A stretch of 30,357 nt of DNA, taken from a virus. Both the position numbers and the translations under genes were made by a program. The first letter of the stretch is position 1; each line of letters opens with the position of its first letter. The stretch is from the IMG/VR virus record IMGVR_UViG_3300017991_000311, positions 1 to 30,357 of that record; one strand, written 5' to 3'. The notes under the pieces are model-generated. The model was not told where the DNA came from. It was given only the letters and a program-made list of their open reading frames with translations, and did not search any database. Positions 1,684 to 28,907 of the stretch are shown here, piece after piece.

Positions 1684-4600
1684 TTAATACCCCGATACTA
1701 ATATTTTTGCCCCGGATCCCTCACAGTCAACATATGCTTTTGATCCCTCGCAAATAACTTTTGGCTTGCTTCCCGTTATTTCTGGTTGCCCCATCCTGCC
1801 ATATAAAGGATATGTGGCCGTCCCCATGGAAAGCGTGAGAGACATTGCCGATCCAGTGACATAGCCGGCATATGTAGGAGAATGAGGGGTTATGTTTAAA
1901 CGCATGACCGTTGCGTGAACAATCGGATCGTGCGACGATGAACTGCTTGAAGCACTGACAGACGTGCTTGACGACGACTCACTTGACGAGCTGACGCTCG
2001 AACTACTGAACGACGTGGATTCCGAGCTCGACGACGAAACCGATTCAGATTGCGAAGATGCAGAAGTTGACTCCGAGCTGGAAGATGAAACCGATTCAGA
2101 TTGCGAGCTTGAAACAGACTGAGACAAACTTTCCGAGACACTGGAAGACGAAAAGGAAGTTGATTCAGATCCTGAGCTTGAAACCGATTCCGAAGAAGAA
2201 CTTTCAGAGGTTGACTCTGAGCTGGAAACAGAAGCGGAAACCGATTCCGAAGAAGCCGATGTGGATTCCGAGCTTGAAGATGATTGCGATGTGCTTTCCG
2301 AACTGCTGGAAGATGAAACGGAAACAGATTCGCTTTCAGAGCTTGACGAACTCGAAACGGATGTACTTTCAGAGCTTGACGAACTCGAAACGGATGTACT
2401 TTCAGAACTTGAAGACGATACTGATGTAGATTCGGAGCTGGAACTGCTATATCCTCCGCAGCTATCGCCAATCCTGACATAATCTACATAAGATAGTCGG
2501 CCGTTGGTAGTCACGCCCCTTTGTAATAAATGGATCTCTCCATTCGTAAAAGAGCCTGTGTGCGAACAATCAACCGAAGTGGCAACTCGTGCATCGTTGC
2601 GATATACATCACAGGTGGCCGACGCAGGAGTGCTAAAATCAATATCAAACACCCATTTTTGCCAGGTGTCCTGAGCAACCAAATTTAACCCGACCTCGTT
2701 CCAATCCGATCCGTCGTAAATAAATAAACCGTCTGAAGCAAAAGACACATGGAGCAGAACTAAACTGTGTCGAACTTGAAACGTAACCTCGTCGCTGTCC
2801 GAAATCGTTCCAATAGCGTCACAATACAGCATTAATTCGGCAACAACCCTGTCGCCGAACTTTCCGACATCTCTGTAAACATGGGACCAATTATTAGGCG
2901 CTGCGGTATTGCCGGCCATTTTCAGGCAGCTTTTTGAGTCAAACGTTTCCTGGGTGCTTTCAGCGTTAATATTGTCGTCGTCCGTCCAATCAGTAATATC
3001 CGCCATATTTTCGTTTAGATATGACGCATTGCTTTCGCATTGTGAAGAGTCAAGCGAGCTTGAACTGCTGGAAGCTGATACGCTGGTGCTTTCTGACGAA
3101 CTGCTGCTGCTGGAAACAGACGTTGACTCGGATAAAGAAGATGAGCTTACACTCGTACTCTCGGAACTGCTCGAGCTGCTTTGAGATGTTGATTCCGAAC
3201 TGGAACTGCTGGAAACACTTGTTGAGGTTGATTCGGAGCTGGAACTTGACGAAACCGACGCTGATTCGGAAGAAGAGCTTGAAGAAACGCTTACACTTTC
3301 AGAGCTGGAACTGGACGATATTGAAACCGACTCTGAACTCGAACTGCTGGAAACACTTGTGCTCTCCGATGAACTTGAGCTGGAAACGCTCTCGGATTCC
3401 GAGCTGCTGGAACTGGAAACTGATGTTGACTCAGAACTGGAGCTCGACGAAACTGACGTTGATTCCGAGCTAGACGAACTGCTGGCGGATAATGATTCTG
3501 AACTGCTGGAAACGGATGTGCTTTCGGATCTGCTGCTACTGGATACGCTTATTGATTGGCTCGACGAACTTGAGCTGATAGATATAGAGACAGATTCGGA
3601 GCTCGAACTTGACGAAATAGACGTTGACTCCGAGCTGCTTGAGCTCGATACCGAAGTTGACTCAGAAGATGAGGAAGACGATGCTGACGCAGACTGAGAG
3701 CTGCTTGAACTCGAACTGCTGTACCCGCCGCAACTGTCTCCAACCCTGATGTAGTCTATATAGGACAGCATGTCGTTTGATGTCTGTCCGTACTGCTGTA
3801 AGTCTATATTTCCATCTGTAAAGCTTCCCGTATATGAACAATCTACGTCGCTTTCTACAAGATTATCATTAAGATGAACATTAACAGTGGCGCTTGCAGG
3901 AGTGCTAAAATCAATATCAAACACCCATTTTTGCCAGGTGTCCTGAGCAACAACGTTCGTGCCGATCTCGTTATATGAAAGACCATCAAAAACCCAAAGA
4001 CCATCGCTTGCAAGAACTAAAACCAGACTAACATCATCTCGCTGCACCCTGATTCTAAAATAGTCATTCTGGCCCAAAGTACCAATGGCATCGTGATATA
4101 TACTAAACTCAACAACAACCCTATCTCCAAAAGACCCGACATCTCTATATCTATAGGCATAATTTGGAATGGTTGCTGTATTGGTATCAAACCGCATACA
4201 GCTCTTTGAGTCAAAGGTGGTCTGGTCGCTTACGCCGTTTCCAGTGTCCCCATCTGTCCAATCGGAAATATCGGCCATATCCTCATTAAGATACGATCCG
4301 CTGCTTTCGCAACTGGGGAAGGTCGAGCTTGAACTGCTGGAAGACGATACGCTGGTGGATTCTGAACTTGAACTGCTGGAAACAGAGGTTGATTCGCTAT
4401 CACTCGTGGACTCGCTCGAGCTGGATTGCGAGGTTGATTCCGAACTCGAAGAAGAGCTGACCGACGTTGATTCGGAGCTTGAGCTACTGGATACGCTGGC
4501 CGACTCCGAACTGCTGCTACTCGAAACGGATGTGCTTTCAGAACTTGAACTTGAAGAAACGCTCGTGCTTTCAGAGGTGGAGCTTGATGATACGGATGTT

Positions 4601-6057
4601 GATTCTGACGAGCTGCTGGAAGACACACTCGTAGACTCGGAAGAACTGCTGCTTGAAACAGAAATTGACTCGCTCGAACTTGAGGACGAAACACTCTCCG
4701 ATGAACTGGATGAGCTGACGCTGGTGCTTTCAGAACTCGAACTGCTTGATATACTTTCAGATTCGCTGGAGCTGGAAGAGGAAACCGATTCAGATTGCGA
4801 ACTGCTGGAAGAACTAGAGCCTGCCGGTGTAAATTCTATTGTTAAATCACCGACACCCTCTGACCAATAGGTCTCGGAGTCTTCTGCTCCACCAACATGA
4901 TTCCATATAATAGCTATTTTATCGCCACTTTCAAATGCACCAGCTGAATCATCCCCATCTATTCTTGCTTGGATTAAATTATGAAGGCCTGAAGGACTTA
5001 CTTGAACCCCTGTATTTGGTTCATTCCATGTTAGAGTATCTGGGTGTATTGTTTGTTGTGAAGGCCGATTACTCGATCCCCACGTTCCCGGCGAGCGGTC
5101 ATCGACGATAGTTAGCTCACCTTGAGCACCTCCATTATAAATGCCTGTAACGTTAATTTCAATATCTGTTCCTGCGTCTGCTATTGTAGCCCCTGGTAAA
5201 TCAGCATCCGTAACTGTCCACATCCAGCCAACATCGAGTGGAGCACCACCATAATCACCTACATAAATATTGCCACTGCTATCATCATACCAAGTGGTAT
5301 TATTATGCTCAAATCCATCATCAGCGTCTGTTACGGTACTTGGCCCCCAGGTATCAGGCTTGATACTCACAGAAGCAACGGTACTATAAACCTTTTCCTT
5401 GAGATAAACTTCTGTTTTATCTGTTTCCAAAGATACTTTATGGTCTATATCCTCAGATTTTTCCCACAACCAGTAACTCTTGCTGTCTTTAAAAACATAT
5501 TTGGTTCTTCCGGAAAGATTAGGAAGCGCAGGTTTAGCTAATGTTGCTTCCTGGTCAAATTCTAAGGTTGTGCGTTGTAACTTATCTAAGGTTTTGGCCG
5601 TGCCTGTATAGCCAAAAGTAATCTGCTTTGCCCCGCCCATCTCAAACGTAATGTTTGATTTAAAATCTTCGGTTTCGACATTGTATGAGATTTCAAGCCT
5701 ATCCGCAGAATCTTCATTCTCGATAACCTTTGTTGTCAGACCGGACACAGTCGCCGTTTTCCGGTCAAACTCTCCGGGTGTGAGTTCTTTTTCAATCTCA
5801 GGGTGTGCGCCAAAACCGATTAACTTAGTGTTCTTTTCCCATATTTCCACACCCTCAGTAACAAAGCGCAACTCATAGCGATTAAACTTACATATCTTTT
5901 TCTCAGCATCCCACACATAAGGTTTATAATCTTTACCGTCTAAGACGTTGACCTGGCCTATTCCTCCCTTATAGACTTTCTGGCCTGTAGGTTTACCGTC
6001 TTCGGTAACGTTAAACTTTCGCCCGGTAAGGGTATATTTTGTGTGTTCTAATGCCAT
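1684..6057 (-). CDS. Giant serine-rich fibre/adhesin with two duplicated globular domains
   Basis: This is a 1457-residue protein. Residues 1-410 form a beta-rich, probably virion-attached head. Three serine-rich tracts follow at about 411-578, 779-1002 and 1204-1375, built from units such as SSSSSSESTSVS. Between them lie two homologous domains of about 200 residues (579-778 and 1003-1203). Both contain SYLNE(D/N)MADI(S/T)DWTD, TFDSKSC, a shared VAQDTWQKWVFDIDFSTPAS core, and end in RIGDSCGGY or RVGDSCGGY, which resembles a lectin/LamG-like jelly roll. A compact domain of about 80 residues closes the protein. The start codon overlaps the stop of the upstream glycosyltransferase gene (TAATG), so translation is probably coupled. 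It is likely an extended host-binding fibre whose stalk is O-glycosylated. The architecture is seen directly; the glycosylation is inferred from the neighbouring genes. Confidence 0.85.
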   Translation of the reverse strand: MALEHTKYTLTGRKFNVTEDGKPTGQKVYKGGIGQVNVLDGKDYKPYVWDAEKKICKFNRYELRFVTEGVEIWEKNTKLIGFGAHPEIEKELTPGEFDRKTATVSGLTTKVIENEDSADRLEISYNVETEDFKSNITFEMGGAKQITFGYTGTAKTLDKLQRTTLEFDQEATLAKPALPNLSGRTKYVFKDSKSYWLWEKSEDIDHKVSLETDKTEVYLKEKVYSTVASVSIKPDTWGPSTVTDADDGFEHNNTTWYDDSSGNIYVGDYGGAPLDVGWMWTVTDADLPGATIADAGTDIEINVTGIYNGGAQGELTIVDDRSPGTWGSSNRPSQQTIHPDTLTWNEPNTGVQVSPSGLHNLIQARIDGDDSAGAFESGDKIAIIWNHVGGAEDSETYWSEGVGDLTIEFTPAGSSSSSSSQSESVSSSSSSESESISSSSSSESTSVSSSSSSESVSSSSSSESISVSSSSSSESTSVSSSSSSESTSVSSSSTSESTSVSSSSSSESTSVSSSSSSESASVSSSSSSESTSVSSSSSSESTSQSSSSESTSDSESTSVSSSSSSESTSVSSSSSSSSTFPSCESSGSYLNEDMADISDWTDGDTGNGVSDQTTFDSKSCMRFDTNTATIPNYAYRYRDVGSFGDRVVVEFSIYHDAIGTLGQNDYFRIRVQRDDVSLVLVLASDGLWVFDGLSYNEIGTNVVAQDTWQKWVFDIDFSTPASATVNVHLNDNLVESDVDCSYTGSFTDGNIDLQQYGQTSNDMLSYIDYIRVGDSCGGYSSSSSSSSQSASASSSSSSESTSVSSSSSSESTSISSSSSSESVSISISSSSSSQSISVSSSSRSESTSVSSSSESLSASSSSSSESTSVSSSSSSESTSVSSSSSSESESVSSSSSSESTSVSSSSSSESVSISSSSSSESVSVSSSSSSESASVSSSSSSESTSTSVSSSSSSESTSQSSSSSSESTSVSSSSLSESTSVSSSSSSSESTSVSASSSSSSLDSSQCESNASYLNENMADITDWTDDDNINAESTQETFDSKSCLKMAGNTAAPNNWSHVYRDVGKFGDRVVAELMLYCDAIGTISDSDEVTFQVRHSLVLLHVSFASDGLFIYDGSDWNEVGLNLVAQDTWQKWVFDIDFSTPASATCDVYRNDARVATSVDCSHTGSFTNGEIHLLQRGVTTNGRLSYVDYVRIGDSCGGYSSSSSESTSVSSSSSESTSVSSSSSSESTSVSSSSSSESESVSVSSSSSSESTSQSSSSSESTSASSESVSASVSSSESTSESSSSESVSSSGSESTSFSSSSVSESLSQSVSSSQSESVSSSSSESTSASSQSESVSSSSSESTSFSSSSVSSSSESSSSTSVSASSSSSSHDPIVHATVMRLNITPHSPTYAGYVTGSAMSLTLSMGTATYPLYGRMGQPEITGSKPKVICEGSKAYVDCEGSGAKILVSGY
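1930..2448 (-). repeat. Serine-rich coding repeat tract 3
   Basis: This tract encodes about 170 residues dominated by Ser with regular Glu, Thr, Val and Gln (units like SSSSESTSVS, plus SESVSSS variants). It lies between the second lectin-like domain and the C-terminal cap. Serine codons of both the TCN and AGY types are mixed, so the DNA repeat is much less exact than the protein repeat. Confidence 0.9.
2450..3050 (-). repeat. Duplicated lectin-like domain, copy B (copy A at about 3722-4320)
   Basis: Copy B encodes about 200 residues and is a homologue of copy A. Conserved blocks include the SYLNE..MADI start, FDSKSC, VYRDVG/RYRDVG, FGDRVV, LASDGL or FASDGL, an exact VAQDTWQKWVFDIDFSTPAS block and a DSCGGY end. 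The DNA of the exact block is also nearly identical between the copies, while the flanks have diverged. This indicates an internal duplication with local conservation or recent gene conversion. Confidence 0.85.
3050..3720 (-). repeat. Serine-rich coding repeat tract 2
   Basis: This central stalk segment of about 224 residues separates the two duplicated globular domains. The period is roughly 10 residues (SSSSSSEST plus a variable hydrophobic and Ser). Small variants include SISISSSS, SASVS and a STSTSVS insertion. It is encoded on the minus strand inside the giant fibre gene. Confidence 0.9.
4320..4825 (-). repeat. Serine-rich coding repeat tract 1
   Basis: This tract of about 168 residues follows the N-terminal region. 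It opens with a run of Ser followed by QSESVSSSS and passes through repeated ESTSVSSSSSS units before the first lectin-like domain begins at a Cys near residue 582. Confidence 0.9.
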
Positions 6058-6944
6058 TACCTAATATCTGTACTCCATTTTTCGAACTCGCCCTTGAGTA
6101 AATTCCAGCTATCCTTAGCGCCCTTTAAGCATTTAGGGGCATTTCCCCTTTGAGTATTGCAATATTTATCCATATTTCTTAAAATTCCGTTTAACCATCC
6201 CTCTTGCCACCACTTCCCATGCACCATAAGAACTTCAAGGCCGTCATGCGTAACCAACTTATCGTGTTTTAGGAAAACTCTTGTGTCCGGTTTTAATTGA
6301 AATTCGTGCAGGCCTGTGACCTGTTGGGCCGGTAATATGAGTATTTTGTCAGGCTTGCGGTCATCAATTTCGATGTTTTGTATGATATGAATGTTTACTA
6401 ACTCAAAATCACAAAAGGCATTGCTTTTTATCTTGGATTCGTAAATATTTCTCCATATATACCCGTACTTATCGACATCCATCCAAGTAGGCACACTTCC
6501 CATGGTTTTAGGCCAGAAACAGTCTATTGGTTCGCCCAATCTTTTGGCAAAATCCTTTCCAAAATAAAACGTACTTCCGTTTGCGCCGCCTACGATAATC
6601 CCGGTTTCGGCTATATCAAAAAACATTTCCATATTTCTGCAAAAGAACATATCGGCATCACACATCATAACAACGCCTGAAAGCTCAGATGCAAACTTAA
6701 ACCTTGGAATCTTGGTGCTCCAGGCCACGTTAGGTTTCCCTGGGTTATTATCCCACCCAAGAGCTACCACTTCAACGTATGGCCTATGCCTGACGTGCTT
6801 ATCGAGCCAAGCTTCATCAAGGTCTAAGCCCAATAAATATACCTTTATGTTGCTGTTTTTATGGTAGTATTCAAAGCTATTTAAAAATGCCAATACGCCG
6901 GGTTGGAACCCGTTTGATGCGGATACGACTATTGATCGATTCAT
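6057..6944 (-). CDS. Glycosyltransferase, GT8-like (GT-A fold)
   Basis: This 295-residue protein has an N-terminal Rossmann-type start (SIVVSASNGFQPGVLAFLNS) and a nucleotide-sugar binding DxD motif in VVMMCDADMFF (Asp96 and Asp98). The layout resembles glycosyltransferase family 8 and related GT-A enzymes that transfer a sugar from a nucleotide donor using a divalent metal. There is no membrane anchor, so it would act in the cytoplasm. The start overlaps the upstream methyltransferase stop by four bases (ATGA), and its own stop overlaps the start of the giant serine-rich gene. That makes the serine-rich protein the most economical substrate, although host surface sugars cannot be excluded. 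The DxD is seen; the family and substrate are inferred. Confidence 0.8.
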   Translation of the reverse strand: MNRSIVVSASNGFQPGVLAFLNSFEYYHKNSNIKVYLLGLDLDEAWLDKHVRHRPYVEVVALGWDNNPGKPNVAWSTKIPRFKFASELSGVVMMCDADMFFCRNMEMFFDIAETGIIVGGANGSTFYFGKDFAKRLGEPIDCFWPKTMGSVPTWMDVDKYGYIWRNIYESKIKSNAFCDFELVNIHIIQNIEIDDRKPDKILILPAQQVTGLHEFQLKPDTRVFLKHDKLVTHDGLEVLMVHGKWWQEGWLNGILRNMDKYCNTQRGNAPKCLKGAKDSWNLLKGEFEKWSTDIR

Positions 6945-7501
6945 GTTTTCCTCACAATTCCCATGCCGGACCGTTCTTTCAATTCCATGGTTTCAGGAAA
7001 CTCAGACTTAACTTTCGCCCAACCTTCCTTTGAAGATGTGTAAATGTCGTGGATAAACACATAACCCTTGCCGTCATTTCTTATGTGTGGCCACAGTGTC
7101 GTTATTTCATGCCAAATCGCTTCTAACTTGTGGCTTCCGTCCAATAGAACAAAATCAACCCTTCCGATATTTTCTTTTATAAAATCACTGGTCAGGTTCA
7201 TGCTGTTCATGTTCCATATCTGATGATTAATATCAGCTTCGCTCATTATTTCTATTAAAGCGTTTACGGCTCCTATACGCAGCTCAATACCAAAATACTT
7301 ACCTCCCATTTCTTTAGCTGCGTGACCCAACCAGTAAGCCGAACTTCCCGACCCTATACCTACCTCAAGGATGTTTTTAGCATCCATCTGCTTTGCCCAG
7401 GTATACATAATCGGTGCGGTAAAAAGAGAACCCGATCTATGTGTGTGGTTTCCCTCAACTACCGACTCAAAGTTTTGGTCTAAATCTAAAATTCCTCTCA
7501 T
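6941..7501 (-). CDS. Class I SAM-dependent methyltransferase, paralog 2
   Basis: This 186-residue protein has the SAM-binding glycine loop ILEVGIGSGSS (about residues 44-54), an acidic motif in KYFGIEL, a catalytic-type segment VDFVLLDGSH and a late FIHDIY motif. This set fits the Methyltransf_24/cephalosporin hydroxylase-like group, whose members often methylate sugars. It is clearly paralogous to the gene just upstream: both share HRSGS(L/F)F, APIMY, GGKYFG, FIKENIGR, EAIWHEITT(L/I)WPH and GYVFIHDIY. Both junctions are four-base ATGA overlaps, so it is translated as part of a tightly coupled cassette. Methylation of sugars on the fibre is a reasonable guess. Confidence 0.82.
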   Translation of the reverse strand: MRGILDLDQNFESVVEGNHTHRSGSLFTAPIMYTWAKQMDAKNILEVGIGSGSSAYWLGHAAKEMGGKYFGIELRIGAVNALIEIMSEADINHQIWNMNSMNLTSDFIKENIGRVDFVLLDGSHKLEAIWHEITTLWPHIRNDGKGYVFIHDIYTSSKEGWAKVKSEFPETMELKERSGMGIVRKT

Positions 7502-8067
7502 ACTTTCCTCACCATTCCCAGGCCAAACCCGGCTTTTAATTCAAACGTTTCTTTATAGTTCGCCTTAACCTTCGCCCAACCCTCTTTTGAGTCCGAATAA
7601 ATATCGTGGATAAAGACATACCCGCTCCCGTCACTTCGCATGTGCGGCCAGATTGTCGTTATTTCGTGCCAAATCGCTTCCGTACTGTGATCACCGTCTA
7701 AATAAGCGATATCAATTCTTCCGATGTTTTCTTTTATAAACTCGTCTGTCATTTCCCGGCTGCTCATACACCATAATTGATAGTTAAGATCGAACTGAGC
7801 CATCAACTTTTCCAGGCCATTAACACGTCCATGGTCAATCTCCATGCCGAAATACTTGCCACCGTTTTCTTTAGCCGCATGGCTAAGCCAAAAACCGGCA
7901 CTCCCAAAGCATGTCCCAATCTCAAGTATGGTCTTGGCTTTCATTTGTTTTATAAAGCAGTACATAATCGGGGCCATAAAGAACGAACCCGACCTATGGT
8001 TATGAACCCCCGATAGATTTTCTTTAAACCCCTGTTCCAGGTCTATAACGCCTTTGTGTTCAGCCAT
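7498..8067 (-). CDS. Class I SAM-dependent methyltransferase, paralog 1
   Basis: This 189-residue protein carries the SAM loop ILEIGTCFGSA (about residues 47-57), GGKYFGMEID, the acidic YLDGDH motif (about 122-127) and FIHDIYSDS near 153. The His/Asp-rich late motifs are typical of sugar-modifying methyltransferases of the cephalosporin hydroxylase-like type. The start lies inside the end of the upstream GT9-like gene (about 25 bases of overlap) with an AGGAAG site. Its stop overlaps the next paralog by four bases. Two adjacent copies may modify different hydroxyls or successive sugars, but this cannot be told from sequence. Confidence 0.82.
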   Translation of the reverse strand: MAEHKGVIDLEQGFKENLSGVHNHRSGSFFMAPIMYCFIKQMKAKTILEIGTCFGSAGFWLSHAAKENGGKYFGMEIDHGRVNGLEKLMAQFDLNYQLWCMSSREMTDEFIKENIGRIDIAYLDGDHSTEAIWHEITTIWPHMRSDGSGYVFIHDIYSDSKEGWAKVKANYKETFELKAGFGLGMVRKV

Positions 8068-8849
8068 TCTTTTACGCTTCCTTTTTGGTAATTATTAATA
8101 TCAACCACCGCAATGTCCTGTTTTGTATAGCATTTTACTAAATACTCTTTTTCTAAATATAAAGTCCTGTCCGGCATAACAGCCATGCTTATATGGAAAT
8201 TACCCGAATCCACGCAGATGGAAGCCGCGCAGCGCTGGTACAGTGAAATTAACGTTTTAATTGATGGTTTGGCTCTTCGTATGCTGCAGTCAATAAAGCC
8301 AAATTTGGCATTGACCGGATTGTAGTATTTATGCTGAAAGAAGGCTTCTATCGGAATAAAACCTGCTTCTATGATTTCTTTCCAGATTTGCTCTGCGGTT
8401 TCCTCAGAGGGATTTATCGGGTCCGGCAATGCGGTTGCCTGGAAATGGCAGGCTACTAATTTGCTCGGACAATTCTCAAGTTCTGGATAATCGTCAACAG
8501 GATCAATCCCCAATTCCTGAACACAGCACCACCCCTGCTTGGTGTATGCTCCGTTAAGATGTTCGGACATGGGAAAGTGAATCTGAAAGGTATAGTCGTA
8601 GCCTTCGATGGCTTCATTGGGGGTGTCGATTAGCAACCCATCGGGAAACAGCTCTTCCTGGCCGACTCCGTTTTGAAGGGCAATATCAATTTGTGTCCCC
8701 GGAAAAAGCGCTTTTAGCTTTGAAAGCGGGGACATAAACATGATCACATCACCGAGGCCATGCCAGAATATCAGGCATACTTTCTTGGGTGAGTTTTTGA
8801 TCAGGTAGTCCGCTACCTTCATTCCGGCATAGTCGGTGATTAATTCCAT
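8043..8849 (-). CDS. Glycosyltransferase, GT9 (heptosyltransferase-like)
   Basis: This 268-residue protein resembles the ADP-heptose:LPS heptosyltransferase (GT9, GT-B fold) family. The N-terminal acceptor-side motif is FWHGLGDVIMFMSPLSKLK (about 29-47), followed by LFPGTQIDIAL. The donor-side motif is ICVDSGNFHISMA (about 211-223), which corresponds to the DSG..H motif of the family. It is somewhat short compared with the usual 300-350 residues. It lies five bases after the 86-residue gene and overlaps the methyltransferase paralog downstream. It probably transfers a heptose or other sugar; the real donor and acceptor are unknown. Confidence 0.8.
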   Translation of the reverse strand: MELITDYAGMKVADYLIKNSPKKVCLIFWHGLGDVIMFMSPLSKLKALFPGTQIDIALQNGVGQEELFPDGLLIDTPNEAIEGYDYTFQIHFPMSEHLNGAYTKQGWCCVQELGIDPVDDYPELENCPSKLVACHFQATALPDPINPSEETAEQIWKEIIEAGFIPIEAFFQHKYYNPVNAKFGFIDCSIRRAKPSIKTLISLYQRCAASICVDSGNFHISMAVMPDRTLYLEKEYLVKCYTKQDIAVVDINNYQKGSVKEWLNTKAL

Positions 8850-8853
8850 TTAT

Positions 8854-9114
8854 TTATTCCATTGGTTTAAACCTGCGAACCTTCCCCGGTAAATTGTATG
8901 CCGATGGTGCAAGTTTCAGTTGTTCTCTCAGGCTGTGGGCCACATCCTCTTTAGGAAAATTGATATACCCCTGCCAGTGAGAAAGTTTATCTTCCTTTTT
9001 AGTGGTAATGGTAATCAGAAAGCTGCCGACTTTCTCTGCATCGGCCAACTTTTCGTTCATATCGTTGAGTGTTTTTGTCGTTGACGAAATTGCCTTTACT
9101 TTTCCATCTTTCAT
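8854..9114 (-). CDS. Small conserved-looking protein of unknown function
   Basis: This is an 86-residue, mixed-charge protein beginning MKDGKVKAISSTTKTLNDMNEK. It has a strong GGAGG site eight bases before the ATG and ends four bases before the GT9-like gene. There are no cysteines or membrane segments. It contains HWQGYINFPKEDV and SLREQLKLAPSAYNLPGKVRRF, which suggest a small alpha/beta fold. It is the first gene after a 188-base gap and so may open the second half of the glycosylation cassette. I do not recognise a family. Confidence 0.7.
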   Translation of the reverse strand: MKDGKVKAISSTTKTLNDMNEKLADAEKVGSFLITITTKKEDKLSHWQGYINFPKEDVAHSLREQLKLAPSAYNLPGKVRRFKPME

Positions 9115-9302
9115 AGCTGCCTCCTTTTTTCATGCAATATGGTCATAATATGAACATATTACATAACCCATGCTTTATTGTTTACTATTTGGCTAATTCT
9201 CGCTTGTATAACGCCATATTGGCGGCCTAATTCGGTTTGAGTATAAAGTAACTTTATGTTTTCCTGTTTTATCCAACTTGGTTCCTATTTTTTTTATATA
9301 TA
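9115..9302 (-). promoter_or_regulatory. AT-rich intergenic gap with small dyads
   Basis: This 188-base gap splits the sugar-modification cassette. It is very AT-rich. It contains an odd palindrome TCATA-A-TATGA at 9143-9153, repeated CATATT-type words around it, and a small hairpin CGCCA-TAT-TGGCG near 9212-9224. I cannot find a convincing -35/-10 pair and no run of U follows the hairpin, so a promoter or operator is only suggested by position. Confidence 0.3.
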
Positions 9303-10166
9303 TCAAAATGAAAGAATGCCTCCAGAATAATATAAAAGTACGTTCTTGGCGACTTCCTGAGGGCTTATCATTGCAAAGCACCTTGGAACACCGCCTACCC
9401 TTGACTTGCAATCCTGATACTTGGCCGTCCAGCAGCCGTTACCCGGAGCGCATTTCAGGCACCCGCACACAGACAGATACCTGTGATAGTTATACATCTG
9501 CCACCTGGGAGGTTCTTTCCCCCCTGCAACGATTACAGATGGCTTATTAAACGCTGTTGACAGTACAAACTGACACGACACAGGTCCGATTGTCCCTTCA
9601 GACCGATAGATAACCTGTATCAGCTCTCTCAAATTGGTTTTTCCCACCAAGTTAAACGCGCCATCAAGGTCGTTGTGAACATCGCTATTTGAACCCACCT
9701 GAACGATCTGAATCTTGTTTTTAAGTTCCTCCACAACCTCCTGCCAGAAAGGATAATACTTTAATATCGCATCGGCCTTGTACCCGGCATTTAACACCCA
9801 ATATTTACCGGAATAGCTTGTTTGTTCCTGGACAATATTTCTCTTTTTTTCCTCGGTAGTGAGATGAAGATCAATATTCATATTGGTAAAAGGGATATCA
9901 ATTCCCAACTGCTTGGCTAAATCGAGCCGGAAACCGTCTGAAAACGACATGGAACCCGGTTTCTGAATCAGCGGATATCCGAGATCCAACTCTCTCCCTT
10001 CTTCAAGCTCGGTAATATACGGATTGTTTTCCCACAGTTCCGGCCATCTGGTGCGAACGTCCGTTTGATATTCTCCCGGGTGCGATAGGTGTAAATCTCG
10101 AACCGCAATGGTCATCATGGCCGTGTCGCCCACATCAAGGCCGTGTTTTAATATTAATTTTTCCAA
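9303..10166 (-). CDS. Glycosyltransferase, GT9-like with C-terminal cysteine cluster
   Basis: This 287-residue protein has a GT9-type N-terminal loop (DVGDTAMMT, residues 11-19) and a donor-site region LVGKTNLRELIQVIYRSEGTIGPVSC (about 173-198), where heptosyltransferases have their GKT.L..L and DSG motifs. This is followed by AFNKPSVIVAGG. The usual Asp of DSG is replaced here (IGPVSC), so activity or donor choice may differ. A cysteine cluster, CGCLKC and GCW (about 234-246), may bind metal. The start is one base after the upstream methyltransferase stop. It probably acts with the other transferases on the fibre or the host surface. Confidence 0.75.
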   Translation of the reverse strand: MEKLILKHGLDVGDTAMMTIAVRDLHLSHPGEYQTDVRTRWPELWENNPYITELEEGRELDLGYPLIQKPGSMSFSDGFRLDLAKQLGIDIPFTNMNIDLHLTTEEKKRNIVQEQTSYSGKYWVLNAGYKADAILKYYPFWQEVVEELKNKIQIVQVGSNSDVHNDLDGAFNLVGKTNLRELIQVIYRSEGTIGPVSCQFVLSTAFNKPSVIVAGGKEPPRWQMYNYHRYLSVCGCLKCAPGNGCWTAKYQDCKSRVGGVPRCFAMISPQEVAKNVLLYYSGGILSF

Positions 10167-10679
10167 TTATTTCCTCTTAAACAGAAAAGATCCGATATCC
10201 TGCCTTATCCCACACTCAGGGTTGCCCTTTTTAACGAGCTTATAACCCCGCCTGTCAAAAAATTCCTCAATAGACGCTTCGGTAAATGTGGTAATATGCT
10301 CACCGGGTTTATAATGATGCCACCTATACAACAGTACCCCTTCGGGCAAAATAGGCACTGTCACCGCCGCCCATTTTGCATGATGCAGCATGAAGTTTGC
10401 CAGGTTGAGATCTGTTAAGTGCTCAAGCACGTCCCAAAAGGTAATCAGGTCGTATTTTTCCCTCCTGATCCCGGTTTGGGGCGCAACACCGACATCGTAA
10501 GTGTCAACTTCAACATCCGGCGGTCTGAACACCCTGAACCAGGGAACCCCGGCCCCAAAGTCCAATACTGTTTTTGCCTTGGCTTTTTTGACAAAATCCC
10601 ATCTGATATTGGCAATCTTTTCGGACGTTACGCTGTTCAGGTACAATGTTCGCTCGTAATAATCTAAGTCGTATTTCAT
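10167..10679 (-). CDS. Class I SAM-dependent methyltransferase (type 11/12-like)
   Basis: This 170-residue protein has SAM motif I VLDFGAG (about 38-44), an acidic turn VDTYDVGV and the post-motif block YDLITFWDVLEHL (about 77-89), typical of Methyltransf_11/12/23 enzymes. The C-terminal HHYKPGEHITTFTEASIEEF resembles the part of these proteins that follows the substrate cap. It begins the cassette just after the Ig-like gene and is followed without a gap by the GT9-like gene. It differs from the two tandem methyltransferases at 6941-8067, so the cassette holds two methyltransferase types. Confidence 0.82.
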   Translation of the reverse strand: MKYDLDYYERTLYLNSVTSEKIANIRWDFVKKAKAKTVLDFGAGVPWFRVFRPPDVEVDTYDVGVAPQTGIRREKYDLITFWDVLEHLTDLNLANFMLHHAKWAAVTVPILPEGVLLYRWHHYKPGEHITTFTEASIEEFFDRRGYKLVKKGNPECGIRQDIGSFLFKRK

Positions 10680-26056: not shown

Positions 26057-26209
26057 CTTCCATTACCTCTCCGGTTCCGTTACACTCAGGACATGGCTCA
26101 AAAGGAAATTTCTTGCCCTTTTCCCAATCCGGCATGTCTGATGGATATTTCCTGAGTATATTCTTTTTACCTTTGCAAATCGGACAAGTTTTTTTTTAGG
26201 GATATTCAT
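26031..26209 (-). CDS. DnaJ-type zinc finger protein requiring a -1 frameshift
   Basis: An ATG at 26209 overlaps the previous stop (ATGA). The zero frame reads MNIPKKK and then a sequence without recognisable features that stops at 26063. Shifting -1 on the nine-A run (26189-26197) gives TCPICKGKKNIL, continuing to EPCPECNGTGEV and a stop at 26031, about 59 residues in all. The CPICKG and CPECNGTG pairs are the hallmark of DnaJ-like zinc fingers. In that frame there is a TAA and no start codon, so expression needs ribosomal or transcriptional slippage. A missing A in the sequence would also explain it. The site fits A_AAA_AAA followed by C. Confidence 0.6.
26189..26197 (-). other. A9 slippery run
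   Basis: Nine A on the coding strand directly follow ATG AAT ATC CCT. The zero frame reads AAA AAA AAA CTT and the -1 frame reads on as ACT TGT, entering the zinc-finger sequence. Both -1 ribosomal frameshifting and RNA polymerase slippage are well known on such runs. Confidence 0.55.
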
Positions 26210-26691
26210 GCGGCCCTTCTCCGATCATAATTCTTGCCGTACATCTGAACGGTTTTACATTCCGGATCCAGAGCTTGGTAATAATCTGATAAATGAAATA
26301 CCCTGCCGCCGATCTCTTTTGTTGATTGATAAGCATGGCCACCCCAATGAGAAACCATAAAATAGTAAAGATCCGCCTGGGAAAGCCTTAACCTGGTCAA
26401 CCATTGCCATTCGGTCGAAGCAATGATGATGATTTTCATGTTCTGTAAGAATCGATCATCCGCTTCTTTCTTCGGTACGCCCACGGCATACTCCCAATCA
26501 TGGATCCGTCACGCCCGCTTTATTGACAGACCGCCCCAAACCGTGTCGGGGACAATCCAGTCCCCATACTTTCCCGGGCCTCATCCCCCTGCAACAGCGT
26601 CTATTTCCTCCTTTGTGGCTGTCCAAAAAGATTCAATCGCGTGTAGGGGGACGTCGGGGCCCTCAAACCTTATGCCGAGCTTTCGAAACAT
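26206..26691 (-). CDS. Phospholipase A2-like phage protein with two in-frame UGA codons (candidate selenoprotein)
   Basis: One continuous frame of 161 codons starts at the ATG at 26691 (AAGGA upstream) and is broken by TGA at codons 37 and 61. Around them the sequence reads AGG-U-GPGKYGDWIVPDTVWGG and LSIKRA-U-RIHDWEYAVG, followed by EADDRFLQNM. This is the pattern of phage/viral PLA2-like proteins, which carry GCGPG in the calcium loop and AC.IHD..Y at the His-Asp catalytic site (here His64, Asp65, Tyr68). Both TGAs stand exactly where I expect the conserved cysteines. Each is followed at 15-17 bases by a stem-loop with G in the loop, whereas the true terminal TGA is not. Standard calling would report only a 92-residue fragment starting at GTG 26484. 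Selenocysteine insertion is the favoured reading; a pseudogene is the alternative. It lies next to the holin in the lysis-like block. Confidence 0.65.
26475..26491 (-). promoter_or_regulatory. SECIS-like hairpin after UGA codon 61
   Basis: GTATGCC-GTG-GGCGTAC gives a seven-base stem with one G-U pair and a three-base loop starting with G. It begins 17 bases after the second UGA, so the loop is about 25 bases downstream. The spacing matches that of the first UGA. Confidence 0.5.
26548..26565 (-). promoter_or_regulatory. SECIS-like hairpin after UGA codon 37
   Basis: GGGGAC-TGGATT-GTCCCC gives a six-base perfect stem (seven with a flanking U-G) and a six-base loop with G in positions 2 and 3. 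It begins 15 bases after the UGA, which places the loop G about 22 bases downstream. This is within the range described for bacterial SECIS elements. Confidence 0.55.
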
Positions 26692-26698
26692 TTAGCGT

Positions 26699-26953
26699 TT
26701 ATATCCTTCGAGCCATCTCCCGCGCTTTTTTGACTTCGCTTCGGCCGGTTATGTATTTATACGCCGCCACGATCATGCTACCGAATGCAATCACATCAGT
26801 TATAATCTTTTGCGCAAGCGCTCCCATCTGTGGAATGTCCGTGTTCAGCATCGCTGACTGTTCTGGAGTAAACCCTCCAAAAAGGGCAATCAGTCCGACA
26901 ACCTCAATGGCTGCCGTTACCCAAAATTCTGATGTCAAAAATCCTGGTTTCAT
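26699..26953 (-). CDS. Holin-like membrane protein
   Basis: This 84-residue protein has two hydrophobic segments, EFWVTAAIEVVGLIALFGGF (about 9-28) and IITDVIAFGSMIVAAYKYI (about 50-68), separated by an amphipathic loop, and ends in a basic tail (VKKAREMARRI). A good ribosome site (AGGAGG) precedes the ATG. Size, topology and place in a block with lysozyme and lipoprotein fit a phage holin that opens the inner membrane. It could also be an unrelated small membrane protein. Confidence 0.7.
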   Translation of the reverse strand: MKPGFLTSEFWVTAAIEVVGLIALFGGFTPEQSAMLNTDIPQMGALAQKIITDVIAFGSMIVAAYKYITGRSEVKKAREMARRI

Positions 26954-27028: not shown

Positions 27029-27481
27029 TTATTTGAGGTATTTCGGCACAAACCTTGGCGTCGCCAGGGTTAAGCCGTCCCGAAATGCCTTGATAAACAA
27101 ATCAAGTCCAGCTCGGTCGTAACCTTCAATAAAGTCAATCGTTTCACCCTTGACCACCAAACCCAAAAGTTTGGTCGCCTTCGATAACAATATTGCGGTT
27201 TCTGCGTTGTGGCCGTATTTTCTGTAAATATAGACATATGCGACCTCCAGTGCGGCTTGTTTCAAATTCTCGTTCGTTTCGTTAAGCAGCTGGTCACAGT
27301 ATGCGATGTGTTCCTCAATTTTAGTCTGGTCTTCAAACCCGACAATGGTTCCGGCGATCTCTCCTGCTTCCTGGACAACGAGCTGGCCGGTTTCGGTCGC
27401 TGCATAATCAGCTAAACCTTGGAAGAACGTACATCCGAAAAATATAAAAATAATTGATAATATTACAGATAGCCTTTTCAT
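27029..27481 (-). CDS. Lipoprotein in the lysis block
   Basis: This protein has 150 residues from the ATG at 27481, which has GGAGG seven bases upstream (a frame from 27508 would add nine). The N-terminus MKRLSVILSIIFIFFGCTFF is a lipoprotein signal with a lipobox-like FFGC. The mature part is helical, with ETGQLVVQEAGEIAGTIV and LKQAALEVAYVYIYRKYG. It would be anchored by Cys near residue 17. A spanin-type role (outer-membrane subunit) is suggested by location only; the length and sequence are not typical of Rz1. Confidence 0.7.
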   Translation of the reverse strand: MKRLSVILSIIFIFFGCTFFQGLADYAATETGQLVVQEAGEIAGTIVGFEDQTKIEEHIAYCDQLLNETNENLKQAALEVAYVYIYRKYGHNAETAILLSKATKLLGLVVKGETIDFIEGYDRAGLDLFIKAFRDGLTLATPRFVPKYLK

Positions 27482-27494
27482 AGTGTTGCCTCCT

Positions 27495-28337
27495 TTAGTT
27501 TCCTCCAAATATTAATCTTGAGTCTATCTCCCTTCCATTAAGCTGGGGATTCTGACTAAACCCCTGTGATTTGATAGTTTTTTGCACACCCTGATTGATT
27601 TTTACTGGTGTTTGGCTTGGATTTAAATTTTTTCTGAGTGCTGCGGTAAAAGCTCCCTGCCATTTTCCGTCGATATAAGCGTCAGCTGATGTCTGATGGT
27701 CCTGACATCCTGAAAAAATAACATGGTTAAGACAGGATTTGCTGCCCATTTTTCGGTTCTGAAAGTCCCTGTTCGCCGACCTCATAATTATGTCTCTCGG
27801 GGGAGCTAAAAATCTCGGTTTAGCTTTTTTTAGGTTTCTTGACATGGTTGCTGAATGGCAGGCGTCACAGATGAAAGTAAGAAATGAGTTTTCTGGAAGG
27901 TCCCTGAAGATGTTGTCTAAAAGGTCGTCGGTGAAGGGATAGTCAAAGTCCATGTCATACGGACAAAGTATTTCGTCAAGTTCATCATCCAGCTCGTCGC
28001 CGTTTCGGTCCCGTACCTGAGAACCATGGCCGGAGTACTGGAATACAAGCTCGCTGTTGTCGTGATCGATTAGCCATATCAGGCGGTCTATGATATTATT
28101 TTTGGTTGCTCTGGAATTTGTTAAGACGCGAATATTGTCAGGATGGAAGCCAAATATATTGATCAGATCAGAGCGCAATCCCTCAACGTCGTTCACGCAT
28201 CCGTTCAGATTGCAATTCCAATCGGGTGGGTATTCGTTAAGGCCGACCAGGAGCGCATATTTTTCGGTCTTTTCTTCCGGAATGATGATTTCCTGATCCG
28301 GTTTGGATGGTTTGAAGAAGTCGCAAAGTTTACACAT
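27495..28337 (-). CDS. Metacaspase/caspase-like C14 peptidase in a lysis cassette
   Basis: This 280-residue protein has a clear caspase-like p20 domain: YALLVGLNEYPP (about 27-38), LNGCVNDVEGLRSDLI, FQYSGHGSQ with catalytic His104, and FICDACHSAT with catalytic Cys160. Acidic DRNGDELDDELDEILCPYD (about 110-128) resembles the calcium- or substrate-binding region of metacaspases. A C-terminal extension from about residue 170 contains HVIFSGCQDHQTSADAY, also typical of the family. The start has GGAGG six bases upstream and overlaps the lysozyme stop. Such proteases cleave after Arg/Lys and act in cell-death systems; here it lies between lysozyme and holin. The target is unknown. Confidence 0.88.
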   Translation of the reverse strand: MCKLCDFFKPSKPDQEIIIPEEKTEKYALLVGLNEYPPDWNCNLNGCVNDVEGLRSDLINIFGFHPDNIRVLTNSRATKNNIIDRLIWLIDHDNSELVFQYSGHGSQVRDRNGDELDDELDEILCPYDMDFDYPFTDDLLDNIFRDLPENSFLTFICDACHSATMSRNLKKAKPRFLAPPRDIIMRSANRDFQNRKMGSKSCLNHVIFSGCQDHQTSADAYIDGKWQGAFTAALRKNLNPSQTPVKINQGVQKTIKSQGFSQNPQLNGREIDSRLIFGGN

Positions 28338-28752
28338 GGCCTGCCTCCATCATCTTTGATAGTTTAATTGCCCTTTTCCCCACCTGTTGGGCCCATAAAG
28401 AATCAAGCATTTCCTCCGCAGCTTTAGAATATACTTGCGCTTCCAGCGCTGCTAAAAACTTTTTAAACCCATAAACCTTGAGCAAGCCCATATTAAAAAG
28501 CATATCGATCAATACTGCCCTTCGGACCGGATTAAGTTTTAGATTGTAATTTTTTATTAGGATTTCGTAATCAGATAGAGCGCCTTTATAATCCTGCTCG
28601 AATAATAAAGCCGCTACTTTGAAAGGAATTCTGCTGCCGACATGGAGGGCGTGGCCATATCCGACTGTAGGAACACCAAGACTGTCAAGATAGACCCTAT
28701 CTCGATAGCCTTCATGCTTTTGAATCATTGATTTTATTTCACTGTCTTCCAC
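28330..28752 (-). CDS. GH24 lysozyme (T4-type endolysin)
   Basis: This protein has 140 residues from a GTG at 28752 (GAGG seven bases upstream). The frame is open from 28887, but the extra 45 residues derive from a GC-rich inverted-repeat region and are unlike lysozymes. The catalytic triad follows T4 lysozyme spacing: Glu14 in KHEGYRD, Asp23 in VYLDSLG and Thr29 in VPTVGYGH. A long helical domain follows (AVLIDMLFNMGLLKVYGFKKFL) and the end is GKRAIKLSKMMEAG. It cleaves the glycan backbone of peptidoglycan. It has no signal peptide, so it needs the holin. It is the first gene of the lysis-like block. Confidence 0.88.
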   Translation of the reverse strand: MEDSEIKSMIQKHEGYRDRVYLDSLGVPTVGYGHALHVGSRIPFKVAALLFEQDYKGALSDYEILIKNYNLKLNPVRRAVLIDMLFNMGLLKVYGFKKFLAALEAQVYSKAAEEMLDSLWAQQVGKRAIKLSKMMEAGHV

Positions 28753-28773
28753 CCGTTTGCCTCGTGTGGGTTT

Positions 28774-28804
28774 TGCGGAGCGCGGGTGCGGACCGCACTC
28801 CGCA
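28774..28804 (-). repeat. GC-rich nested inverted repeat in lysozyme leader
   Basis: TGCGGAG and CTCCGCA form a seven-base outer stem around GTGCGG/CCGCAC, which can form its own hairpin. The block is strikingly GC-rich compared with its surroundings. No U run follows. It may hide or set the ribosome site of the GTG start 22 bases downstream, or be an inserted palindromic unit. Confidence 0.5.
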
Positions 28805-28878
28805 GGGTCAAAGTGATGTGGAAAGGAATGATGAAGTAGAAAATATTTTATCGAAGTGTGTAAAGTACTTTTTTGTGG

Positions 28879-28907
28879 ATTTCGCACATAGCGGCTATAT
28901 GCGAAAT
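28879..28907. promoter_or_regulatory. 29-base near-perfect palindrome upstream of the lysis block
   Basis: Fourteen-base arms (ATTTCGCACATAGC on the left, GCTATATGCGAAAT on the right) are separated by one G and differ at a single position. No U run follows on either strand near the stem. It is a good candidate for a dimeric repressor or activator site, or a strong RNA hairpin. Confidence 0.55.

Follow-up and report, generated by a model that had tools for sequence, protein, structure and literature searches.

How a phage gene interrupted by two in-frame TGA codons could still yield one protein, and which residue would stand at those codons, is the question raised by a 30,357-bp virus record in IMG/VR (the whole stretch analysed, here called the window) that contains terminase, portal and capsid genes. 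In the minus-strand frame from 26691 to 26206, codons 37 and 61, both TGA, are the only interruptions; the terminal TGA is a true stop and shares bases with the ATG that starts the following small ORF (ATGA). The frame reads MFRKLGIRFEGPDVPLHAIESFWTATKEEIDAVAGG U GPGKYGDWIVPDTVWGGLSIKRA U RIHDWEYAVG..., with U marking the two internal TGAs. The original prediction, made from the sequence alone, had described this single interrupted frame as a PLA2-like gene with a hairpin after each internal TGA and selenocysteine (Sec) at both; the description of the frame was confirmed on the sequence. The gene and its key codons are:

26206..26691, minus strand: PLA2-like ORF, 161 residues if TGA37 and TGA61 are read through
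26581..26583, minus strand: in-frame TGA at codon 37 (putative Sec37), a Cys column in relatives
26509..26511, minus strand: in-frame TGA at codon 61 (putative Sec61), a Cys column in relatives
26497..26502, minus strand: His64-Asp65, invariant in 55/55 aligned relatives and matching the prokaryotic PLA2 His-Asp

A separate IMG/VR record (3300018080_002449) shows 100% identity over 9,149 bp, both TGAs included, which makes a single-base sequencing error unlikely.

Searched singly against Pfam, PHROGs and NCBIfam, the window protein matched no significant family; PF09056 is matched by 13 of 55 family members, and the window protein alone is unmatched. A profile of the whole family, searched against the PDB, retrieved 1faz (E 1.1e-7), 4aup (6.5e-6) and 7ygk (1.5e-5). 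The best fold matches of an AlphaFold model (pLDDT 77, pTM 0.72) are four PLA2 structures (Z 8.3-6.2, with 8.3 to 4aup and 6.7 to 1faz), and the next unrelated row scores 3.6. His64 and Asp65 align with the HD of 1faz. The calcium loop differs in length from that of 1faz, and model confidence is lower around residues 31-50. The fold of the family is that of prokaryotic phospholipase A2, as shown by the model, with phospholipase activity itself inferred; the predicted PLA2-like identity held at the profile and fold level. The two TGA columns correspond to a Cys on the calcium-loop side and a Cys three residues before the catalytic His, and their counterparts in 1faz form the C45-C61 disulfide. 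Prokaryotic secreted PLA2 proteins (PF09056; 1faz, 4aup, 7ygk, 8k1w) share with the family the core helices, the C-x-x-H-D active-site motif, and a Cys pair with one member on the side of the calcium loop and the other ahead of the catalytic His. Unlike them, the window family is phage-encoded, lacks an obvious signal peptide, has a longer GPG(K)-x-G-D loop, and uses UGA codons for the Cys pair. A Vibrio phage 1.097.O "phospholipase A2 domain protein" (AUR87155.1) and loci L005-L064 belong to the same family over residues 13-126, but use standard Cys codons, which no excess of hairpins follows.

Scanning viral contigs by alignment yielded 61 loci, and across the approximately 60 viral relatives TGT or TGC (Cys) stands at both columns in nearly all. 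Distant relatives from Vibrio phage and Vibrio plasmid sequences, detected by tblastn, also have Cys at both. Pattern and protein scans tolerating TGA were used to find L066, L067, L068, L090, L123 and L126; together with L009, these make seven more distinct phage relatives with TGA. Five of the seven (L066, L067, L068, L123, L126) carry it at both columns, while L009 has TGA at 37 only, with TGT (Cys) at 61, and L090 has TGC (Cys) at 37 and TGA at 61 only. The eight distinct genes, window gene included, thus contribute 14 TGA sites, all in the two Cys columns, and the TGA-carrying relatives have no other in-frame stops. L066, L067 and L068 are 65-71% identical to the window protein, and L123 and L126 are divergent relatives. 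A clean exchange separates the close sisters L066 and L090 (dS 0.58, dN 0.05), which have TGA and TGC, respectively, at column 37. Because homologues have Cys at both columns and other phages have TGA at the same columns, the TGA pair is beyond chance.

These results bear directly on what the original prediction had proposed. Homologues do have Cys at both columns, as it had expected, and the accumulation of nonsense and frameshift changes in relatives that would have refuted it was not seen, the TGAs being kept in clean frames. The exchange of Cys and TGA at each column also supports its inference of Sec at both UGAs, with Sec insertion itself remaining an inference. One relative, L015, is alone in having Ala at both columns (L015:2419-2814), an observation indicating that the conserved pair can disappear jointly.

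Searches with a TGA-IHD pattern returned 23 and 18 matches, with a sensible reading only in the family members L065, L067, L068, L123 and L126; the remaining matches were rejected for having several stops or no family motif. In a maximum-likelihood tree, all TGA genes fall in one 17-row clade (support 97/84), where they are intermixed with Cys genes. The minimum number of label changes on that tree is three; a single origin is not excluded, and L123 and L126 lie on long branches. A protein scan of genomes for TGA-bearing relatives found no relative. The 11 matches of a genome DNA-pattern scan were dismissed as chance, and that pattern was limited to the longer spacing seen in the window clade, so genes like those of L009, L123 and L126 were not covered. 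A search of 400 Chloroflexota and 396 Acidobacteriota genomes found nothing and was uninformative.

Selection on the frame indicates that it is read to its end. Across the compared TGA genes overall dN/dS is ~0.06-0.2, and for the pairs L067/L068 and L066/L090, in which synonymous differences predominate before, between and after the TGAs, it is 0.06-0.09. Past the second TGA, L067 and L068 differ at 2 nonsynonymous versus 12 synonymous codons, and because synonymous differences predominate there, this segment appears to be translated and under selection. Selection is purifying before and after each TGA. Gene decay or an artefact of sequencing could be proposed, as TGA is a stop codon and expression of the protein is undemonstrated. 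However, the identical second record and the presence of the same TGAs in seven more phages, with clean frames and purifying selection, make this explanation very unlikely. A second alternative treats the UGAs as stops that are leaky or regulated, with a near-cognate tRNA (for Trp, for example) letting a fraction of the product reach full length. Precedent exists: both phages and RNA viruses have proteins extended by read-through, which hairpins 3' of stops can promote. Against this, TGA is confined to the two Cys columns and trades places there with Cys codons (L090, L009), and this identifies the residue required. Moreover, two leaky stops in succession would yield very little product, and products ending at 36 or 60 would lack the His-Asp site. 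We consider this alternative, too, highly improbable.

A code in which UGA has been reassigned and is sense everywhere (tables 4 or 25) has precedent, as such codes exist in phages, but it is all but excluded here: 10 of the 35 window genes end on TGA, and only the PLA2-like gene has internal TGAs. A six-phage comparison likewise revealed no convincing conserved internal TGA in any other gene; the candidates it produced were rejected as antisense frames, gene ends or Ser-rich repeats.

What distinguishes the two internal TGAs from ordinary stops at the RNA level is the sequence that follows them:

26548..26565, minus strand: bSECIS-like hairpin 1, 6-7 bp stem, GGGGAC-TGGATT-GTCCCC
26475..26491, minus strand: bSECIS-like hairpin 2, 7 bp stem, GTATGCC-GTG-GGCGTAC

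Hairpin 1 begins 15 nt past the first TGA, with its loop (UGGAUU) beginning 21 nt past the UGA; hairpin 2 begins 17 nt past the second, with its loop (GUG) beginning at 24 nt. A comparable hairpin was sought downstream of the terminal TGA of this ORF and none was found. The predicted positions of both hairpins, and their absence after the terminal TGA, therefore held. The claim that G starts the loop held for hairpin 2, G being the second loop base in hairpin 1, and the claim that both are stable held in part, strongly for hairpin 1 and only modestly for hairpin 2 by itself.

Bacterial SECIS elements are constrained to a loop of 3-9 nt, a stem of 4-16 bp, a G among the first two bases of the loop, a spacing of 16-37 nt and an MFE <= -7.5 kcal/mol (PMC13188914). 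A hairpin of this published geometry at <= -5 kcal/mol follows 13 of the 14 TGA sites, both window sites included, at a spacing of 21-27 nt; the L009 site is the one without a consensus bSECIS. By the same criterion, only 13 of 106 Cys codons of these columns are followed by a hairpin (Fisher p 1.5e-9 versus TGA sites), although the rows share ancestry and p-values overstate their independence and significance. All 13 loops have G then G or U near the loop start (UGGAUU, GUG, CGGG, GGUU, AGUUG, UGGUUU, GGCU, CGGU, AGUU, GGUC). The bare stem-loop energies in the window, -12.1 and -7.6 kcal/mol, both pass the -7.5 cut-off, which is met at 7/14 TGA sites by the bare stem-loop and at 14/14 by the MFE of 55 nt. 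Under a synonymous-codon-shuffle null, mean z is -1.81 at UGA sites versus -0.17 at Cys sites (p 1.4e-6), with window values of p ~0.01 for hairpin 1 and ~0.2 for hairpin 2; the latter draws its weight only from relatives. Hairpin 1 keeps 97% of its pairs and changes only one-sidedly (G-U type), without double compensations. Hairpin 2 shifts register between lineages and, in one fixed register, does no better than shuffling. The RNA support is hairpin conservation, not formal covariation, as strict covariation is weak. An Rfam search of the window detected no SECIS or other RNA family. The expectation that bSECIS-like hairpins would recur in related phages is supported, since they follow the TGAs across divergent phages. 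In L090 (L090:2402-2800), hairpin 1 persists after the Cys codon, as if loss of the TGA were recent.

The hairpins also bear on a further alternative, that UGA is read as ordinary cysteine by a host or phage tRNA-Cys with a UCA anticodon, giving a normal disulfide. UCA-anticodon tRNA-Cys variants have been reported in nature, and Cys would suit the protein, as relatives have Cys at both columns. However, UGA is a normal stop in the same phages, elsewhere in the window Cys is always encoded by TGT or TGC (122 codons), a single gene is affected, and no tRNA gene was found in the window. The excess of hairpins at UGA and not at Cys sites would moreover serve no purpose. This alternative is unlikely, less firmly so than those above. 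Recoding machinery was not detected in the phages either: eight phage records, five of them with TGA genes, yielded no tRNA-Sec, and selA was not found in the window record. The absence of tRNA-Sec from the eight records means that recoding would depend on the host. An attempt to infer the host from terminase and capsid relatives failed, as these are too distant (best 22-34% identity).

The best explanation is that the gene likely encodes a phage selenoprotein of PLA2 fold, in which a diselenide replaces the conserved disulfide (a selenylsulfide in single-TGA members). Computation establishes the equivalence of Cys and UGA, the conserved recoding, the hairpins and the fold family; Sec insertion, the diselenide and a part in lysis are inferred. 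We hypothesize that host SelB and tRNA-Sec machinery would recode both UGAs as selenocysteine, with a separate in-frame bSECIS hairpin, starting 15-17 nt downstream, directing each. Sec37 and Sec61 would then occupy the conserved Cys pair linking the calcium-loop region to the catalytic His-Asp helix, and because they occupy these positions they would most likely form a diselenide staple. The joint Ala/Ala replacement in L015 fits a bonded pair, from which a diselenide is inferred, and a selenylsulfide in its place in the single-UGA relatives L009 and L090. The diselenide foreseen by the original prediction is thus kept as the most likely reading, without direct proof. Since diselenides resist reduction better than disulfides, such a bond could form and persist in the reducing, probably anaerobic, host cytoplasm. 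A point against the selenoprotein reading is that the Cys pair here is structural and not catalytic, which is unusual for Sec.

Bacterial selenoproteins such as E. coli FdhF likewise have UGA at the Cys position of homologues, followed 16-37 nt downstream by a small hairpin with G in its apical loop (PMC13188914). Unlike these, the window gene is phage-encoded, does not belong to a known redox enzyme family, and carries at a structural Cys pair two UGAs that are 24 codons from each other and have a hairpin each. SelL-type selenoproteins carry paired Sec that forms a diselenide and thus offer precedent for the pairing, but their family is unrelated and their UxxU arrangement differs from the 24-residue separation seen here. 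Poxvirus glutathione peroxidases are known viral selenoproteins (PMC8310308), again of an unrelated family, and animal viruses use eukaryotic SECIS elements. To our knowledge selenoproteins are not known in phages. None was reported in the literature searched, which did not cover subscription papers and preprints, and the selenoproteome literature searched, including a 2026 prokaryotic selenoproteome review, mentions neither phages nor phospholipases and treats viral diversity at most in passing. Within that scope, and with Sec inferred, this is likely the first family of selenoproteins to be reported from bacterial viruses; what is new is probably a selenoprotein of bacterial type that is phage-borne and placed at a structural Cys pair. 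If true, it would provide a natural example of Sec at a conserved Cys pair without a catalytic function, a model in which natural diselenide bonds could be tested, and a phage protein directly dependent on host selenium metabolism. Phage selenoproteins may be generally overlooked, as standard annotation cuts such genes short.

The genes upstream of the PLA2-like gene offer suggestions about its role:

26699..26953, minus strand: small hydrophobic ORF directly upstream, holin-like by appearance only
27029..27481, minus strand: lipoprotein-like ORF (MKRLSVILSIIFIFFGC...), kept in L066/L093 and L068/L091
27495..28337, minus strand: caspase-like (Peptidase_C14) ORF, retained close to the PLA2 gene across the clade
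28330..28887, minus strand: phage lysozyme/endolysin ORF

The surroundings of the gene are similar in related phages: judged by eye, their ORFs include a candidate endolysin, amidase- or peptidase-like (L009, L093, L123), and a lipoprotein that is fibronectin-like (L009, L091, L123). Because endolysin, holin-like and lipoprotein genes adjoin, an attack on host membrane phospholipids at lysis is suggested, and these would be the target of the enzyme. The inferred role in lysis could as readily prove wrong as right, and a virion or entry role remains possible. A bolder reading, towards which we lean only narrowly, is that this is a lysis-associated phage PLA2 with a diselenide or selenylsulfide encoded in several lineages by way of host selenium machinery, Sec serving as a reduction-resistant structural staple, and the first phage selenoprotein family. 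Were this so, the enzyme might mature in the reducing cytoplasm of anaerobic hosts, or lysis might depend on host selenium.

Several other features of the window were observed. The caspase-like gene at 27495-28337 (minus strand; Peptidase_C14 E 4e-28) lies in a phage lysis neighbourhood and is conserved in related phages; a relative was found in only one phage record, LR745208 (uncultured phage, 485 kb). The ORF at 26208-26056 (minus strand), which overlaps the stop of the PLA2-like gene, begins with MNIPKKK, where nine A stand in a row. Slipping by -1 at this run would give TCPICKGKKN...FEPCPECNGTGEV, a DnaJ CxxCxGxG-type zinc finger (weak Pfam match), and the run is also present in L001; slippage or a frameshift is possible. 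At 1684-6057 (minus strand) a 1457-aa protein contains long Ser-rich repeats (SSSSSSESTSVSS), and a similar Ser-rich protein occurs in L009. Finally, the region 6057-10679 (minus strand) holds a glycosyltransferase-like cluster, with a family 9 heptosyltransferase match at 9303-10166 and methyltransferase-like genes recognized by eye, perhaps for surface or virion glycan modification.
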